Positions 280 through 7,750 of a stretch of DNA of 8,227 nucleotides are shown here, one piece after another. The notes beneath the pieces were generated by a model. The model saw only the letters and a list, made by a program, of their open reading frames with translations. It was not told the origin of the DNA and searched no databases. How positions within the stretch are numbered: the first letter of the stretch is position 1; each line of letters starts with the position of its first letter. The translations under genes and the position numbers were made by a program. This DNA comes from Candidatus Iainarchaeum sp. (GTDB taxonomy: Archaea > Iainarchaeota > Iainarchaeia > Iainarchaeales > UBA10191), in NCBI GenBank assembly GCA_013331925.1, contig DUFJ01000049.1, forward strand, positions 1-8,227, given 5' to 3'.

Positions 280-3200
280 TCACCAAGCGAAATTTGCAAA
301 CCATCTTCCAACCCTTGCACTGCAGCCTGACTCCAAGGAAGTTCGATTGGCTGCATTGCCTGCAGTTGCCGAAACTGCATTCATGACTGCTATAGCATCC
401 TGCCCGCTGATTTTTCCATCCGCGTTTGCTTCAAGGTCTGCAAAAACATCGGCGTTTAGTTGAGATGCCGTGTACTCTCTCGTGCCATTGGCGGTAACAA
501 CCCTAATTATGCCCTCAAGAACAATGCAAGGAGCCGACGCTGGAGCCGCTGTTATGGCCGATTTTGCATTATTAAGACACACATTAGCGTCCTGCAAAAC
601 AATGCCGTTTAACTGTTTTGTGTAAGCGTCTATGCAGACATAAAAAGTCTCGGCATTCGAACCACACTGGGAAACAGGATACGTGTTATTTGCCCCGCAA
701 TAACGCTCAACTGACACGAGTGGTGGCAAAGAAGACCTATATTTTATTAGGCCAGGATAGTTGAGTAATGTTTGCATTCTCTCGCTGCATTGCGCCCAAT
801 TCAAGTCTTTGTTTATTACCGCAAGCATATCAGCAGAGCTTATCTTGTTGTCTGCGTTGGCATTGAATGCGTTAAAGACTGCTGTTGGATAAACCCCTTG
901 CGCTAGCTCGCTGTTGCCGTTCTGCACCACTACCCTCAAGAATCCTTCAAGCTGCGTGCAAGGCGCTGCTTTTGCAACTAAAACATCCTGGCACCTGAAG
1001 TAAGCGTCAGCATTCACTGTTCCTGCAAAATAGCCTGTAGCGCATACTGAATAGTTTTCTGCGCTTGTCTCACAAGATGCTATTGTTACGTTTCCGCATC
1101 TTGGAAGGGCTTGCTCTACCTGGCTGATTCTTTGTTGGCATTCTGAAGCCTGTAATGCTCCTCCAATTACTTGCAAAACGTCTTGGGCATCAATGTCTCC
1201 GTCGCCGTTAATGTCAAAAATGCTTGAATAGTAATTAGTGTCTACAGTCAAGGTTCCTTGATTGGTTATAGTGCGTAACTGTCCTTCCAACTGCTGGCAT
1301 GCTGGCGCTGTCTTTGCCAAATCTGTACAGCGTTTAATGTCCTCAAGCGTTACATTATTCTGCTCCGCAAGGTAAGAGCTCCTGCATGCTGACATTGTTT
1401 CGCCGCTTGTCGCGCAAGCAGAGACTGGGTGAGTGTTATTGGTGTAGCAAAAGTTTACTGTGTCTGCAAGCACAACATTCACTTCGATTTCAGCAGTGGA
1501 AAACTCTGGGTTTTGCGGAACTATGCGGATTGAGTTGACTTTCACATTTACATAGCTGCCGGCGCTTGCTCCAGAGCCTTCCAAAACGTTAGCGTTCTGG
1601 TCTGCCTGCAAGTAAGTGAAGTCTCTTGCTGAGGATATGAAAACTGCCTCTGGAGGATGTTCTGTGCTGCCTGGAGGGTTTGCAAAGTACAGGTTTGACA
1701 ATGTCACTGTTTCTGAAGAAACTTCCGGAACTTCAATCCTATCCATTTGATGTACTGTATAACTTCCGCTTGCTGTAATGACTTGGCGTTCCGGAATTAC
1801 AACGTTTACTTCAATGCTTGCCCTAGATAGTGTTGAGTCGAAATTATTGATGTTGATTGAATTGACTTTTACATTCACATAGCTGCCTGCTTCAGCACCA
1901 CCGCCTATTAGGAAATTTGCATCCTGGCCTTCTTGCAGGTAAGTGAAATTCCTATAGCTTGTGATAAAAACAACTTGTGCTGGATGTTCTGTGCTGCCTG
2001 GAATGTTTGCAAAAGCCATTCTTTCAATCAGCACAGTTCTTGAGGAAACTTCTGGCACTTCAATTCCGTCTCCTCCCTTGACTGTGTATGTTCCGCTTTC
2101 GCTTATGATTTGAGGTATTGGAACTGGCGGAGTGGTTGGAACGCTAGGCACTGTAATTTGGACATGCTTTTCGTCATCAAACCATGCAATGCTTTCCTGC
2201 ACCATTCCAAAGTATACTGTGTAATTTCCTGGGCCTTCATTAAGCCATGTTGGAATGCGCTGGCCGCTTGAGTTAATAAAAGTCGCATTCTGGTCCAAGA
2301 GGATTGTTAGCTGTTTGTTATTAATGCTCTCTCCAGGGGCTATTGTTCCTGGAAGATTAGAGCCTGTAACAACAGGGTCCCAGAGCAGTTTTCCAGAAGG
2401 CGTTTGAATAGCATGCACCCTGTAGCGGAAGTCATCATAATAATCCAACGGAGTGCTAGCTCCAGTAGTCCAGGTGGTGTTGCCGTTGTTCCTAATGTTT
2501 GCCTTAATAAAAAAAGTAGGCACTATTCTGCTTGGCACCACTGGGGTGATGTATTCTCTGTATTCCGAGCTTACGTTTGAAATTACAGCGCTGTTCTGGA
2601 ATACAATCTGCCCTAAATGCCCGCCTTCATATTGCTGCGAGCTCCAAGGCTTTAAAACCTGCCTTAGTGTTCCAGTCCTTGAAAGAGTCGGAGCGCTTCT
2701 CTCATAACGGAAATAATTTCCTGCTGCTCCTGTTCCTTTCTTTCCCAAAACCAGGTTTCCGTTAATGTCTGTTATTAAAAAGTCAAACCTGTCTCCAACA
2801 TCTGCTGAAGCTCCGCTGAATGTTGTAATAAGGTTCATGTCGAATTTTGCTGGAGGGAGGCTTGATTCTGCTGGCGAGGCGGTGTCTGTGTAAATGCTTC
2901 CTGTAGCATTGCTGCCAGTGGGCGGAGTTGAACCGCTGCCAGCGCCTGCTGCAGGAAGTTCAGTTGCTAAAATTATCCACAAGTTTGCTGTTCCTCTTTG
3001 TGCTGAAAGATAATCATACTCTATTGCGTCAATTTTTGAGGCAGGCACATTAATGCCTGTTTCTGCAGCGCCGAGCAAAGCAAACTGCCCTGAAAGGCTC
3101 AAGGCGTAAAAGTTGTTGTCTGCTCCGATTGCGAGCAATGGATAACCTTGGGTAAATGCAACGTGGTTTACCGGAAGCTTTGCCAATGCCTTTATTGGCT

Positions 3201-3432
3201 TGCTTAGCGTTGTCCTGGCGTTTTCTTCCGCAATATTGCAGCTAACTATGTCTCCAAACTTGAACTGCGAGTCTGTAATGTACATCGTTGTCTCGTTGTC
3301 TATGAAAACATAGCATTCTTGTGTAAGCATTGTTGCAGCTGTGATGTTTGCCTGTTCAATGTTTAAAGTGTCTGCAATTGCAAAGCTTGAGAATGCCAGC
3401 AATGCAATCAAAACAATTATTTCTTTTTTCAT
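280..3432 (-). CDS. Large secreted multidomain protein with 109-residue repeats and three six-Cys/calcium-loop modules
   Basis: A 1050-residue exported protein, not recognised as a named family. A signal peptide covers residues 1-20 (KK, hydrophobic core, A-I-A before Asp21). Residues 21-160 form a domain with one Cys pair (C40, C65). A Gly/Ser/Pro linker follows (about 161-192). Residues 195-435 are beta-rich and include an Asn-Gly-rich segment (NNGNTTWT, about 316-323) resembling CARDB/NBR1-like Ig folds. Next come two gapless 109-residue repeats (442-550, 551-659), then three modules (660-778, 779-911, 912-1050), each with six cysteines and one DxNxDGxIxxxD-type loop. There are many NxS/T sequons, so glycosylation is possible. 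No C-terminal membrane anchor or sorting segment is visible. The ATG overlaps the stop of the lipoprotein gene (ATGA), implying translational coupling and a shared role. The domain make-up suggests adhesion or protein binding at the cell surface; no catalytic motif was seen. The stop is TGA. Confidence 0.9.
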   Translation of the reverse strand: MKKEIIVLIALLAFSSFAIADTLNIEQANITAATMLTQECYVFIDNETTMYITDSQFKFGDIVSCNIAEENARTTLSKPIKALAKLPVNHVAFTQGYPLLAIGADNNFYALSLSGQFALLGAAETGINVPASKIDAIEYDYLSAQRGTANLWIILATELPAAGAGSGSTPPTGSNATGSIYTDTASPAESSLPPAKFDMNLITTFSGASADVGDRFDFLITDINGNLVLGKKGTGAAGNYFRYERSAPTLSRTGTLRQVLKPWSSQQYEGGHLGQIVFQNSAVISNVSSEYREYITPVVPSRIVPTFFIKANIRNNGNTTWTTGASTPLDYYDDFRYRVHAIQTPSGKLLWDPVVTGSNLPGTIAPGESINNKQLTILLDQNATFINSSGQRIPTWLNEGPGNYTVYFGMVQESIAWFDDEKHVQITVPSVPTTPPVPIPQIISESGTYTVKGGDGIEVPEVSSRTVLIERMAFANIPGSTEHPAQVVFITSYRNFTYLQEGQDANFLIGGGAEAGSYVNVKVNSININNFDSTLSRASIEVNVVIPERQVITASGSYTVHQMDRIEVPEVSSETVTLSNLYFANPPGSTEHPPEAVFISSARDFTYLQADQNANVLEGSGASAGSYVNVKVNSIRIVPQNPEFSTAEIEVNVVLADTVNFCYTNNTHPVSACATSGETMSACRSSYLAEQNNVTLEDIKRCTDLAKTAPACQQLEGQLRTITNQGTLTVDTNYYSSIFDINGDGDIDAQDVLQVIGGALQASECQQRISQVEQALPRCGNVTIASCETSAENYSVCATGYFAGTVNADAYFRCQDVLVAKAAPCTQLEGFLRVVVQNGNSELAQGVYPTAVFNAFNANADNKISSADMLAVINKDLNWAQCSERMQTLLNYPGLIKYRSSLPPLVSVERYCGANNTYPVSQCGSNAETFYVCIDAYTKQLNGIVLQDANVCLNNAKSAITAAPASAPCIVLEGIIRVVTANGTREYTASQLNADVFADLEANADGKISGQDAIAVMNAVSATAGNAANRTSLESGCSARVGRWFANFAW
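283..699 (-). repeat. Six-Cys plus calcium-loop module 3 (residues 912-1050)
   Basis: Cysteines at 912, 923, 933, 952, 969 and 1037. The motif after Cys5 is IVLEG. The loop at 1001-1012 (EANADGKISGQD) has Glu at position 1. The Cys1-Cys4 spacings match module 1 exactly (11, 10, 19), while the later spacings are longer. It forms the C-terminus of the protein. Confidence 0.7.
700..1098 (-). repeat. Six-Cys plus calcium-loop module 2 (residues 779-911)
   Basis: Cysteines at 779, 787, 797, 814, 825 and 882 keep the same order and near-identical spacing as module 1. The motif after Cys5 is TQLEG. The loop at 857-868 (NANADNKISSAD) has Asn in place of the first Asp and lacks the central Gly, so calcium binding may be weaker. 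An extra tail of about 29 residues leads to module 3. Confidence 0.7.
1099..1455 (-). repeat. Six-Cys plus calcium-loop module 1 (residues 660-778)
   Basis: Cysteines at 662, 673, 683, 702, 712 and 765. A loop at 740-751 (DINGDGDIDAQD) matches the dockerin/EF-hand pattern with Asp at positions 1, 5 and 12 and Asn at 3. The motif after Cys5 is QQLEG. This is the only module with a fully canonical loop. Three disulfides and bound calcium are inferred. Confidence 0.75.
1456..1782 (-). repeat. 109-residue repeat, copy 2 (residues 551-659)
   Basis: Second copy, directly abutting copy 1 with the same length (327 bases). The most divergent stretches are the segment just after EVSS and the one after VNSI, likely loops. 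It ends at the junction with the first cysteine-rich module. Confidence 0.85.
1783..2109 (-). repeat. 109-residue repeat, copy 1 (residues 442-550)
   Basis: First of two adjacent repeats within the large secreted protein. By eye it aligns without gaps to copy 2, with about 65 of 109 residues identical. Conserved blocks include IEVPEVSS, PGSTEHP, FTYLQ and GSYVNVKVNSI. Alternating hydrophobic and polar residues suggest a beta-sandwich. I do not recognise the family. Confidence 0.85.
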
Positions 3433-3869
3433 TGTGCTTCGCCTCCGCTGACTGTTATTGTTTTGCTAATGGTTTTGATTTGATAGTCTGCTGTAAGCGT
3501 GATAATATCAACAGTGTACGTTCCAGGGCTTGCGTACTCCTGGTTTGCAGAGTAAGCGCACTCTGTTTTATTGTCGCATTGGAATGTCCTAAAGCTGTCA
3601 ATGCCTTCAACTCCTGCTCCTTTGAAATTCACAATCACTTCCACAATGCCCTTGTCATAAGTTGCAATTCCGCTGATTTCCACATTCCTGCGGACAAGAG
3701 CTGTTGAAGGCGCAGTAGCATCAACTGTTATGTCTGATAGTTGAGGAGGCTCTTCTGGAGGAACAATTGGGGGATTTTCTGGGGGAGTTTCAGGAGGCTG
3801 CTCAACGCAGCCTGTTATAAAAATAATAATGCCTAGTGCCAAGGCAAGGACTAGAATTTTGCTTTTCAA
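3429..3869 (-). CDS. Small surface lipoprotein with Pro/Glu-rich linker and beta-rich domain
   Basis: A 146-residue lipoprotein. The start chosen is TTG at 3869-3867, because AAGGAGGA ends eight bases upstream and the predicted transcription start (about 3908) lies between this TTG and the upstream in-frame GTG at 3917. From TTG the protein has a classic lipoprotein signal (K-S-K, hydrophobic core, lipobox I-T-G-C with Cys21). Lipid attachment at Cys21 would tether it to the outer face of the membrane. Next is a PPE-rich spacer (about residues 22-43), then about 100 residues resembling an Ig or PKD-like beta-sandwich with one probable disulfide (QCDNKTEC). It ends in TGA overlapping the ATG of the large secreted gene, so the two are probably made together. 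The spacer would hold the domain away from the membrane, perhaps as an anchor or partner for the 1050-residue protein (inference). Family not recognised. Confidence 0.85.
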   Translation of the reverse strand: MKSKILVLALALGIIIFITGCVEQPPETPPENPPIVPPEEPPQLSDITVDATAPSTALVRRNVEISGIATYDKGIVEVIVNFKGAGVEGIDSFRTFQCDNKTECAYSANQEYASPGTYTVDIITLTADYQIKTISKTITVSGGEAQ

Positions 3870-3876
3870 CTTTAAA

Positions 3877-3884
3877 TCCTCCTT
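3877..3884 (-). promoter_or_regulatory. Strong ribosome binding site fixing the lipoprotein start
   Basis: AAGGAGGA on the minus strand, with GGAGG ending eight bases before the TTG at 3869. It lies inside the longer open frame that starts at GTG 3917, and is the main reason for preferring the shorter protein. Confidence 0.75.
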
Positions 3885-3930
3885 AAGGAACAGTTTTTCC
3901 TGTATTGTAAGTATCACTTATCCTTGTAAT

Positions 3931-3969: not shown

Positions 3970-4344
3970 TCATTTGGAAAATTTTCTCTTGAAGCCTGAG
4001 AAAAAGCCTTCCCTTTCTTTAAAACCGTCAAGCCTTGAGAGCTCTTCAAAAAGCTCTTTTTGCTTTTTTGAAAGGCTTGCAGGAGTCTTGACTATTGCTT
4101 TAACGTACAAGTCTCCAATCCTTGAGGAGTTTATCTCTTTCACTCCAAGGCCTTTGAGCTTGAATATAGTGTCTGTCTGCGTGCCTGCTGGAACTTTAAG
4201 CATTGCTTTTTTTCCTGAAATTGTCGGAACCTCAAGCTCGCTTCCTAGCGCTGCTTCCGTAAAGCTTATTGGCATTTCTAAAAACAAGTCGCTTGCGCCT
4301 CTTTTGAAAATCTTGTGGGGCTTTACTAGCACAACAACATACAA
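3970..4344 (-). CDS. dnaJ: DnaJ C-terminal part, downstream of in-frame UGA
   Basis: This continues the dnaJ reading frame after the TGA at 4348-4350; no frameshift separates the two parts. It holds the rest of the client-binding region, CTD II and the dimerisation tail: YVVVLVKPHKIF, then PISFTEAALGSELEVPT, VPAGTQTDTIFKLKGLGV, a second GDLYV, and the usual charged end (KEREGFFSGFKRKFSK). If translated alone, the nearest start is TTG at 4344-4342, two codons after the stop (the Leu of DLYV). A weak GGCGGA lies about 13 bases upstream. Alone it lacks the J-domain and zinc region, so it could not stimulate DnaK. With the N-terminal part and one residue for the TGA, the total is about 377 residues, the normal DnaJ length. 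It ends at TGA, about 30 bases before the next promoter. Confidence 0.85.
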   Translation of the reverse strand: MYVVVLVKPHKIFKRGASDLFLEMPISFTEAALGSELEVPTISGKKAMLKVPAGTQTDTIFKLKGLGVKEINSSRIGDLYVKAIVKTPASLSKKQKELFEELSRLDGFKEREGFFSGFKRKFSK

Positions 4345-4347
4345 GTC

Positions 4348-4350
4348 TCA
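4348..4350 (-). other. dnaJ: In-frame TGA at the conserved Gly codon of dnaJ
   Basis: The minus strand reads GGC GGA ATG CAC TGA GAC TTG TAT. DnaJ proteins have GGxxGDLYV here; this gene has GGMH-stop-DLYV, so the stop replaces the glycine exactly. One change, GGA to TGA, would account for it. Confidence 0.9.
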
Positions 4351-5103
4351 GTGCATTCCGCCCTTCAAGCCAGTGTTTCCCTCTCCTTTGAGCCTTAAGT
4401 GGTTTCCTGAATCAATGCCTGCAGGAATTTTTACACTAATTCTTTTCTTGACTCGCATCTGGCCTGAACCGTTGCATTTTCTGCAAGGGTTTTTTATCGC
4501 AATTCCTGAGCCTTGGCATTTTGGGCAGGTGGTACGAGTAGAAAATATTCCAAACACTGTCCTTTGCGTCCTTTCAACCATTCCTCTTCCATTGCATGCA
4601 CTGCATTTTGAGAGCTCTTTATCCCTGCTTCCTGTTCCTTCGCATTCAGAGCATTTTTCAGTCTTTGCAATCTCTATTGTTTTTTCAGTGCCTGTTGCTG
4701 CTTCTTCAAGCTCTATTTCCAATTCTGTCTTAAGGTCTGCTCCGCGCTGGCTTGCCTGCTTTCTCTCCACTTTGAAGGATTGCTCGAAAGGGTCAAATCC
4801 TAGGTCTCCGAAAAGGTCTGAAAAGTCAAAGTGTGCTCCGCCTCTCCTTATGAAATCGTTGATGTCAAATCCTGCAAATTCAGGGCTTTCAAACCCGTAA
4901 GAGTCATAGGCCGAGCGCTTTTGCGCGTCTGAAAGTATAGTGTATGCTTCCAGGACTTCCTTGAATTTTTCTTCAGCTCCTGGCTCTTTGTTGATGTCTG
5001 GATGGTATTTTTTCGCTAACTCTTTGTACGCCTGTTTTACCTGTTCCGGAGTCGCATTTCTCCCCAAGCCTAAAGTTTCATAATAGTCTCTTTTTTCAGG
5101 CAT
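4348..5103 (-). CDS. dnaJ: DnaJ (Hsp40) co-chaperone, N-terminal part ending at in-frame UGA
   Basis: Hsp40 partner that delivers unfolded proteins to DnaK and stimulates its ATPase. This 251-residue part has a J-domain (about 5-70) with HPD at 34-36. A Gly/Phe region follows (about 71-116) with a DIF-like DFSDLFGD. All four CxxCxGxG zinc motifs are intact, at Cys 151/154, 167/170, 193/196 and 207/210. The start of the client-binding domain (KIPAGIDSGNHLRLKGEG) then runs up to the TGA. The ATG at 5103 fits the usual family start (KRDYYE). It lies 51 bases after dnaK with no clear ribosome site. If the UGA stops translation, the product keeps the J, G/F and zinc regions but loses CTD II and the dimer interface. 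Such a piece could still act on DnaK, but client handling would probably be impaired. Family identity is certain; only the meaning of the stop is open. Confidence 0.95.
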   Translation of the reverse strand: MPEKRDYYETLGLGRNATPEQVKQAYKELAKKYHPDINKEPGAEEKFKEVLEAYTILSDAQKRSAYDSYGFESPEFAGFDINDFIRRGGAHFDFSDLFGDLGFDPFEQSFKVERKQASQRGADLKTELEIELEEAATGTEKTIEIAKTEKCSECEGTGSRDKELSKCSACNGRGMVERTQRTVFGIFSTRTTCPKCQGSGIAIKNPCRKCNGSGQMRVKKRISVKIPAGIDSGNHLRLKGEGNTGLKGGMH

Positions 5104-5154: not shown

Positions 5155-7017
5155 CTATTTCTTGTCGTCTTCAACTTTAAAGTCAGCATCAACTGCGTTA
5201 TCCTTGTCTGGATTTGTGCCTTCAGGCTTTTGCTCCGGCTCTTGCTTTTGGTCTCGTGCTTGCTGCGCTTTCTGGTAAAGCTCTGTTGAAGCCTCTTGCA
5301 CTAAAGCCTGCAGTTCCGCAAGCTTTGCTTTTATCGCGTTAGCGTCTTTTTTCTCTGGCTTGAGCAATGCCTTCATCTCTTCTATTTTTGCTTTAATCTT
5401 TTCTATCTCGCTGCTTGAAACCTTTCCCTCAAAGTCTTTGAGCAAATTCTCTGTCTGGTACACTAGAGAGTCCGCGTTGTTTATTGTCTCAATCTCTTGC
5501 TTTCTTTTCTCGTCTTCAGAGGCGTGCTCTTCAGCCTCTTTTTGCATTCTTTTAATCTCTTCTTCTGAAAGCTTTTGCGCTGCTATGATTTTTATGCTCT
5601 GCTGCTTTCCTGTGCCTAAATCCTTTGCTGTAACGTGAACTATTCCGTTGGCGTCAATGTCAAAGCTTACTTCGATTTGCGGAATTCCCCTAGGCGCTGG
5701 AGGAATTCCGACAAGCTGGAATCTTCCCAAAGTTTTATTGTCCAGAGCCATCGGCCTTTCTCCCTGCAAAACATGAATGTCCACTGCTGTTTGCGAATCA
5801 GCTGCTGTTGAAAAAATCTGGCTCTTTCTTGTCGGGATTGTGGTGTTTCTTTCAATCAGCTTTGTCAGCACTCCGCCTAGAGTTTCAACTCCAAGGCTTA
5901 GTGGCGTGACATCAAGCAATAAGATGTCTTTTACCTCTCCTGCCAGCACTCCAGCCTGGATTGCAGCTCCTGCAGCCACTGCCTCCATCGGGTCAACGCC
6001 TCTTTCTGGAACTTTTCCGAATTGCGTTTCAATGAATTTTTGCACTGCGGGCATTCTTGTAGGCCCGCCTATAAGAATTATTTTTCCAATGTCCGCTGCC
6101 TCAAGCTTTGCGTCAGCTAATGCCTGCCTTACTGGCTTTTCGCATTTCTTGATCAAGGGCATTACTATCTCTTCAAGCTTTGCCCTGTTCAAAGTGTAGG
6201 TAAAGTGTTTCGGGCCTGAAGAGTCAGCTGTTATGTACGGAAGGTTAATGTCCGTGCTTAGGCTTGTTGAAAGCTCTATTTTTGCTCTCTCCGCACTCTC
6301 CTTCAAGCGTTGCATTGCAACGCTGTCCTTCCTTAAATCAATTGCTTCTATTTTTTTGAACTCCTGCAGCAGGAATTCTGTAAGCGAGGCATCCATGTCA
6401 GTTCCGCCAAGCTGCGTGTCTCCAGAGGTTGATTTTACCTCAAACACTCCGTTCCCGAATTCCATTACTGTAACGTCTAAAGTTCCGCCTCCAAAATCAA
6501 ACACGACTATTTTTTGCTCCTTGCTTTGCTTGTCTAATCCGTAAGCTAGCGAGGCTGCTGTAGGCTCGTTAATGATTCTAATAACTTCCAATCCTGCAAT
6601 AGCTCCTGCATCCTTTGTTGCCTGGCGTTGATTGTCGTCAAAGTATGCCGGAACTGTAATTACTGCTTTTTCAACTTTCTCCCCCAGAAAAGCTTCAGCG
6701 TCTTTTTTGATTTTCTGCAATAGGAAAGCGCTTAGCTGCTGTGGATTGTACTCTTTTCCCCCAGCCTTGTACTTGAAGTCTGTGCCCATTTTTCTCTTGA
6801 ATGCAGTGAAGGTGTTTTCAGGGTTTGAAACAGCCTGCCTTTTTGCTGGCTCTCCTACGAGCATCTGGCCTTCTTTAGTAAAGGCTACAACGCTTGGGAA
6901 TGCCTTTCCATAAAGCGAAACTCCTTCTGCTGATGGAATAATGCGCGGCTTTCCTGCTTCCAGGACTGCTGCTCCGGAATTCGTCGTTCCGAGGTCTATG
7001 CCTATGAGCTTTGCCAT
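5155..7017 (-). CDS. dnaK: Molecular chaperone DnaK (Hsp70)
   Basis: ATP-driven cytoplasmic chaperone that binds and releases exposed hydrophobic peptides, working with DnaJ and GrpE encoded beside it. It is full length at 620 residues. The nucleotide-binding domain has IDLGTTNS (7-14), the second phosphate motif [10 protein letters not shown] (173-182) and LIGGPTRMP (315-323). The interdomain linker is [13 protein letters not shown] (364-376). The substrate-binding beta domain and helical lid follow, then a disordered Gln/Glu/Pro-rich end closing in VEDDKK. The roughly 24-residue insertion that Gram-negative DnaKs carry after about residue 80 is absent, as in archaeal and Gram-positive homologues. 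ATG at 7017 has GGGGAGTGA just upstream and lies four bases after the grpE stop, so the two are translated in tandem. The stop is TAG, the only non-TGA stop in the window. Confidence 0.98.
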
Positions 7018-7021
7018 TCTC

Positions 7022-7750
7022 TCACTCCCCTATTTTCTCTACTGAATCGTTTTCTGTTGAATTGTAAGGTTCTTCTTTTTCCAAGCCTTCAGCTTCTGGC
7101 TTTTTTTCTTCTTTTTCCTCTTCTTTCTTTCCTGTTTCTGCTTCTTTCCCTTCAATTTTTCCGGAATCTTCCCTGCTTTCTACTGTTTTTTCTTTTGGCG
7201 GCTCTTTTTCAAGCTCTTGGAGTTGGGTTTGCAGCTGTTTTTTTATTTCAGCGATTTTTTTCACTGGCTTCTGGTTTATTTTTACAGTTGCATGCCTTAA
7301 GAGCTTTCCATTAAGCGTATAGCCTTTCTTGAACTCTTCAAGCACTATTCCTTCATCCTTGTCCTGGCTGTAGCCTGTCTCTACTGCCTCGTGCATTTCA
7401 GGATTGAAAAGTTCATTAAGCGCGGAGAATTGCTTTACGCTGTTTTTTCCAAGGAATGATTTCAGGAGATAGTATAAGGGCTCTATTGCCCCCCTTTGCT
7501 CCTCGTTTCCTTTCTTCAAGGCGCTTTCAAAAGCGTCCATTATTGGGAGGATTTCTGTGAAAACTCCTGCGGTTGAGAATTTTTCAAACTCTGTCTTGTT
7601 TTTTTCCTCTCTTTTCCTGAAGTTTTCAAACTCTGCCTGAAGCCTTTGCAAAGTTTCAATAAGCTCTTTGTTGTCTTTCACTACCTCTTCAAGCTTTAGC
7701 CTTTCAGCTTCCACTGCCTCTCTTGCTTTTTTGCCATCAAACACGCTCAA
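7022..7750 (-). CDS. grpE: GrpE nucleotide exchange factor with long acidic C-terminal tail
   Basis: Cytoplasmic exchange factor that removes ADP from DnaK. The GrpE core fills residues 1-162: a long coiled-coil helix (about 7-58) with FENFRKRE, the helical dimer region ([12 protein letters not shown]), and the beta-wing signature [16 protein letters not shown] (143-158). After that come about 80 residues rich in Glu, Lys and Pro with no visible fold. Most GrpEs carry such disorder before the core, so a C-terminal placement is unusual. The start chosen is TTG at 7750, with GGTG five bases upstream; the GTG at 7744 two codons later is a possible alternative. It is the first gene of the chaperone operon, with the stop TGA four bases from dnaK. 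Confidence 0.93.

Follow-up and report, generated by a model that had tools for sequence, protein, structure and literature searches.

The window, that is, the whole stretch of DNA analysed here, is a contig of 8,227 bases which contains no N and belongs to a draft genome of 796,716 bases in 116 contigs, with an estimated completeness of 81%. Its reverse strand carries grpE (7022..7750), dnaK (5155..7017) and dnaJ (5103..3970). The first two genes, both recognised with Pfam, are intact: grpE encodes a protein of 242 residues and ends with TGA, and dnaK encodes an HSP70 of 620 residues and ends with TAG. The gene order and all three Pfam domains of DnaJ are those of a Type I DnaJ (Hsp40) in a grpE-dnaK-dnaJ cluster; unlike in such clusters, however, the dnaJ gene of the present assembly is interrupted at codon 252.

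The dnaJ frame consists of 378 codons and has stops exclusively at codons 252 and 378. Codon 378 is a TGA, the natural end of the frame. Codon 252 of 377 (4350..4348, reverse strand) is also a TGA, and it lies on the Gly of the GGxxGDLYV motif, as an earlier note on this DNA had reported for positions 4345-4356, which include the codon. The upstream part (4348..5103, reverse strand; 251 residues) comprises the J domain, the G/F-rich region, the CXXCXGXG zinc domain and the start of the C-terminal domain. The downstream part (3970..4347, reverse strand) continues in frame with the remainder of the C-terminal domain up to its own terminal TGA, and a TTG at 4344 is a possible start codon for it.

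Pfam profiles agree with this division. Before the TGA they match the J domain, the CXXCXGXG domain and positions 2-61 of the 152 of the DnaJ_C profile; after it, DnaJ_C is matched over positions 66-152 of 152. When the stop is read as X, the match covers positions 2-152 of 152, that is, a complete C-terminal domain, and the three domains that identify a Type I DnaJ (PF00226, PF00684 and PF01556) are all found on the frame. The HPD motif and the four CxxCxGxG motifs are visible in the translation. The earlier description of a 377-residue DnaJ which is otherwise canonical is thus borne out, with Pfam domains on both halves. An Rfam search of the window gave no match, and a plasmid search found nothing.

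The rest of the window, on the same strand, holds a gene for a secreted-looking protein of 1,050 residues (280-3432), in which a dockerin-like match at residues 734-756 barely exceeds the Pfam threshold; inspection of the translation by eye also showed two similar units in the middle of the protein. A further gene encodes a 162-residue protein (3429-3917) in which a lipobox seems to be present on visual inspection, together with a proline-rich segment; this protein gave no Pfam match.

Codon 252 in homologues and relatives

The 251-residue piece, used as a query, has as its top match a database protein of 377 residues, P0001, which comes from a contig of 3,188 bases and belongs to a cluster of 8 members. 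P0001 differs from the frame of the window at two positions: T137I, and a G at codon 252. The first of these differences shows that P0001 was not re-translated from the window. As P0001 is known as protein letters only, its G at position 252 would presumably come from a Gly codon. The downstream half of dnaJ is identical to P0001, in line with the earlier claim that this half is conserved. No equally truncated copy of DnaJ occurs among the best 120 matches listed for the 251-residue piece.

In an alignment of the best 120 listed database homologues, 117 sequences have Gly at the column of the TGA, 3 have Ser and none has Cys. The residue had been called invariant; it is indeed a conserved Gly, but the three Ser make the word a slight overstatement.

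At the level of DNA, the site is occupied by a Gly codon in all 29 loci of relatives (17 GGA, 9 GGC, 2 GGG and 1 GGT), including that of G001, a genome of the same genus (69% identical). The same is true of a further 80 loci, many of them bacterial (33 GGC, 26 GGT, 17 GGA and 4 GGG), which brings the count to 109 of the 109 loci retrieved outside this genome. Comparison with related dnaJ genes had been suggested beforehand, and its outcome is that the relatives examined are intact at this site and the present assembly stands alone.

Many of the genomes searched lack DnaJ itself, which is not universal in the group. A dnaJ match is found in 85 of 143 genomes, this one included, and in 46 of the 77 with a completeness of at least 90% and a contamination of at most 5%; no match is found in the other 58, nor in 31 of those 77.

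Eight genomes besides this one have a stop inside the listed dnaJ match. A recoding site shared with G039 (L009), G054 (L010) and G033 (L025) was considered and discarded, the inner TGA listed for them lying at the C-terminal end. The dnaJ matches of G026, G046, G066, G070 and G142, which lie outside the fetched loci, are listed with TAA, TGA or TAG inside. In G001, a second match restricted to the J domain (C49:79157-79348) lies in a frame of 142 residues directly upstream of the intact dnaJ.

Probable assembly error or recent nonsense mutation

The near-identical full-length protein, together with the use of UGA as an ordinary stop in the sampled part of this genome (see below), makes an error or a very recent mutation likely, and not recoding. 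Of the options raised earlier (a nonsense mutation, a base-calling error, or readthrough with insertion of an amino acid), recoding finds no support here. The other two stand, and the balance tips just towards an error in the consensus, or a base from mixed strains, as the origin of the TGA in this rough metagenome assembly. The change would then have arisen during sequencing or assembly, and not in the cell.

Both the near-identical P0001, with its G, and the Gly codon of the 109 loci argue for such an error. So does the state of the draft. A sample of 299 kb contains 83 runs of N, of which 75 have a length of exactly two. The 108 conserved genes compared at 55% identity or more (29,248 aligned residues) have 11 frame breaks, each with an N at most 20 bases away; at 40% identity or more, the count is 13 frame changes. 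The reverse survey of G001 gave no frame break with 102 queries, and seven lines with inner stops, the query ORFs of this survey including opposite-strand frames of genes. Two pairs of overlapping contig ends mismatch at 38 of 413 bases (L161:1-413 with L166:4403-4815) and at 4 of 150 bases, i.e., at about 3-9%; an overlap of 56 bases between L211 and L212, which lies away from contig ends, was left out. Around an NN join (for example in the region L164:2618-2859), the two flanks are copies of one another save for 7 mismatches in 120. The disagreeing ends and the repeated flanks suggest that the draft either mixes variants or errs at ends and joins.

Other features of the same data count against an error. 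The window is free of N, all the frame breaks counted at 55% identity have an N nearby, and besides the TGA of dnaJ there is a single inner stop in the 29,248 aligned residues, immediately before a start codon (L226). The lack of N-free frame breaks and the scarcity of inner stops suggest that the bases outside gaps may be reliable. Moreover, since DnaJ is not universal in the group, the gene could plausibly carry a genuine null allele.

A genuine nonsense mutation of very recent date is a close rival, slightly behind, which we regard as a serious possibility and as somewhat less probable than its opposite. According to this explanation, the cell makes a truncated DnaJ of 251 residues and perhaps also a separate piece of 124 residues, restarted at the TTG at 4344. 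The low number of inner stops, the confinement of frame breaks to the vicinity of N and the 58 genomes without DnaJ all favour it, and the identity of the downstream half with P0001 is what a very young change should leave. Also on this side, a DnaJ of the cyanobacterium Synechocystis is reported to need no more than its J and G/F domains for viability, although these are not enough under stress (PMC7609799). Against the mutation, the adjoining dnaK and grpE are intact, the rest of dnaJ shows no decay, the best 120 listed matches include no similarly truncated copy, and overlapping contig ends disagree within the assembly.

The case resembles the lone stops that occur in draft metagenome-assembled genomes, with which it shares an otherwise intact frame, a near-identical intact copy and the restriction to one assembly among those examined. 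No difference was found from the lone-stop errors or young pseudogenes of draft genomes; it is the coincidence with a conserved Gly that made dnaJ conspicuous.

UGA and tRNAs in the draft genome

The use of UGA was surveyed in 40 stretches (299,376 bases, including the window) of the 797-kb draft, to which reading frames from 40 stretches of G001 (612,918 bases) were aligned. The sampled stretches have a G+C content of 43%. In 127 alignments with at least 55% identity, from which a margin of 12 columns at the alignment ends was excluded, G001 has Gly at 1,884 columns. The codon of the draft is TGA at one of them, the site in dnaJ; at the others it is GGA (850), GGC (498), GGG (212), GGT (32), GGN (1) or a non-Gly codon (290). 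The 94 alignments that reach the end of the homologue terminate with TAA (43), TGA (35) or TAG (16), and 32 of the 35 terminal TGA are at most 15 codons from the homologue's end. UGA is an ordinary stop in the sampled part of the genome.

With a looser cut at 40% identity, 18 stops (7 TGA and 11 TAA) appear in 10 alignments. Two extra TGA then lie opposite a Gly, outside the stricter count: one (L209) is 3 columns from the alignment end and beside an NN join, and the other belongs to an alignment which contains seven stops. Also dropped were a TGA facing Trp on L167, where the alignment is 50% identical, and alignments rich in stops (L154). Once the 55% threshold, the margin of 12 columns and the rule on flanks are applied, the stop in dnaJ and the one before the start codon in L226 are left. 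The search for further in-frame TGA at conserved sites, which the earlier note had put forward, found by these rules none opposite a Gly beyond dnaJ in the 299 kb.

The whole draft gives 21 Rfam tRNA matches, and ARAGORN, with introns allowed, finds 22 tRNA genes at those loci. The sampled stretches add Lys(CTT) and Asp(GTC), for a total of 24. A tRNA-Gly with a UCA anticodon is not among these 24 genes, which come from an 81% complete draft and a search that misses intron-bearing tRNAs; the anticodons of the intron-bearing genes are also less certain. The two tRNA-Gly genes found have the anticodons TCC and GCC.

A tRNA with a UCA anticodon, another lead of the earlier note, appeared once: ARAGORN called the gene at C10:8474-8595 (L130:1501-1622) a tRNA-Sec(UCA) with one intron of 49 bases. 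A gene of G001 (C9:955-1073, L169) aligns with it over the full length, and a stretch resembling an anticodon loop, common to both genes, sits within the supposed intron. Each gene would have two introns in the anticodon arm, of 27 and 20 bases here and of 25 and 20 bases in G001. With splice points predicted in this way from the two sequences, the gene of the draft would be a tRNA-Arg(CCU), in which the final pair of the anticodon stem is mismatched, and that of G001 a tRNA-Lys(CUU). The UCA call was therefore rejected as being, on this two-intron reading, an artefact of the one-intron model.

If the UGA is real, a full-length DnaJ could still be made by strain-specific local readthrough in a DPANN-type archaeon, a near-cognate or suppressor tRNA supplying an amino acid at this single codon. 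Two points favour it: the reading frame and the sequence are fully preserved in the downstream half, and the survey of the code covers 299 kb out of 797 kb, in a draft that is 81% complete. We nevertheless consider it very improbable. None of the 109 fetched loci shares the TGA, so that a conserved recoding site was not found, and no UCA-anticodon tRNA is among the 24, given the two-intron reading. The window has no Rfam match, and the RNA past the TGA folds worse than shuffled sequences (z = +1.33; 184 of the 200 shuffles matched or exceeded it in stability). A recoding structure was also discarded for the region around the TGA (z = +0.61) and for that after the gene (z = −0.98). Nothing that was found speaks for readthrough.

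Even less credit is due to a genome-wide reading of UGA as Gly. The known bacterial reassignments of UGA, as described in a passage of PMC8629427, give it the meaning Gly in Absconditabacteria and Gracilibacteria, and Trp in other groups. The present case resembles the former (NCBI table 25) in that a UGA stands exactly at a conserved Gly, which is what the earlier note had found noteworthy. However, it differs from them by its archaeal host, by being a single case in the sample, by the regular termination of genes at UGA and by the lack of a tRNA-Gly with anticodon UCA among those found in the 81% complete draft. The counts of TGA at one of 1,884 Gly columns and at 35 of 94 gene ends refute this code for the part of the genome that was surveyed. 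The position on a Gly calls for no special cause, since Gly is commonly conserved and some Gly codons are one base away from TGA.

The affiliation of the host agrees with this. Two proteins of the draft, presumably one release factor and one Pelota, carry the first domain of eRF1, and in 14 control genomes this family has matches exclusively in the 4 archaea. The named relatives of the DnaJ of the window include Candidatus Diapherotrites and Candidatus ainarchaeum, and the genome is that of an uncultured archaeon, probably one of this DPANN group. Archaeal-type release factor domains and nearest named relatives which include Diapherotrites place it outside the bacteria that read UGA as Gly, and the lead towards Absconditabacteria and Gracilibacteria was abandoned.

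UGA also encodes selenocysteine, and selenocysteine systems exist in archaea. Its insertion at codon 252 was likewise rejected as extremely unlikely, because the column is Gly or Ser and never Cys in the best 120 listed homologues, no tRNA-Sec (RF01852) scores above the cut-off in the draft (the best of 10 weaker matches is a tRNA-Ser) and SepSecS (PF05889) has no match there, absences which, at 81% completeness, are not final.

Meaning for DnaJ and for reports of recoding

The case is chiefly a warning: a stop codon on a conserved Gly mimics recoding, yet the conserved genes of the same draft show the normal use of UGA. Similarly, an archaeal tRNA with two introns, miscalled as tRNA-Sec(UCA), could pass as support for recoding. 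Should the base be real, translation would end at codon 252 with the release of a DnaJ of 251 residues which has the J domain, the G/F region and the zinc domain, and which does not have a complete C-terminal substrate-binding domain.
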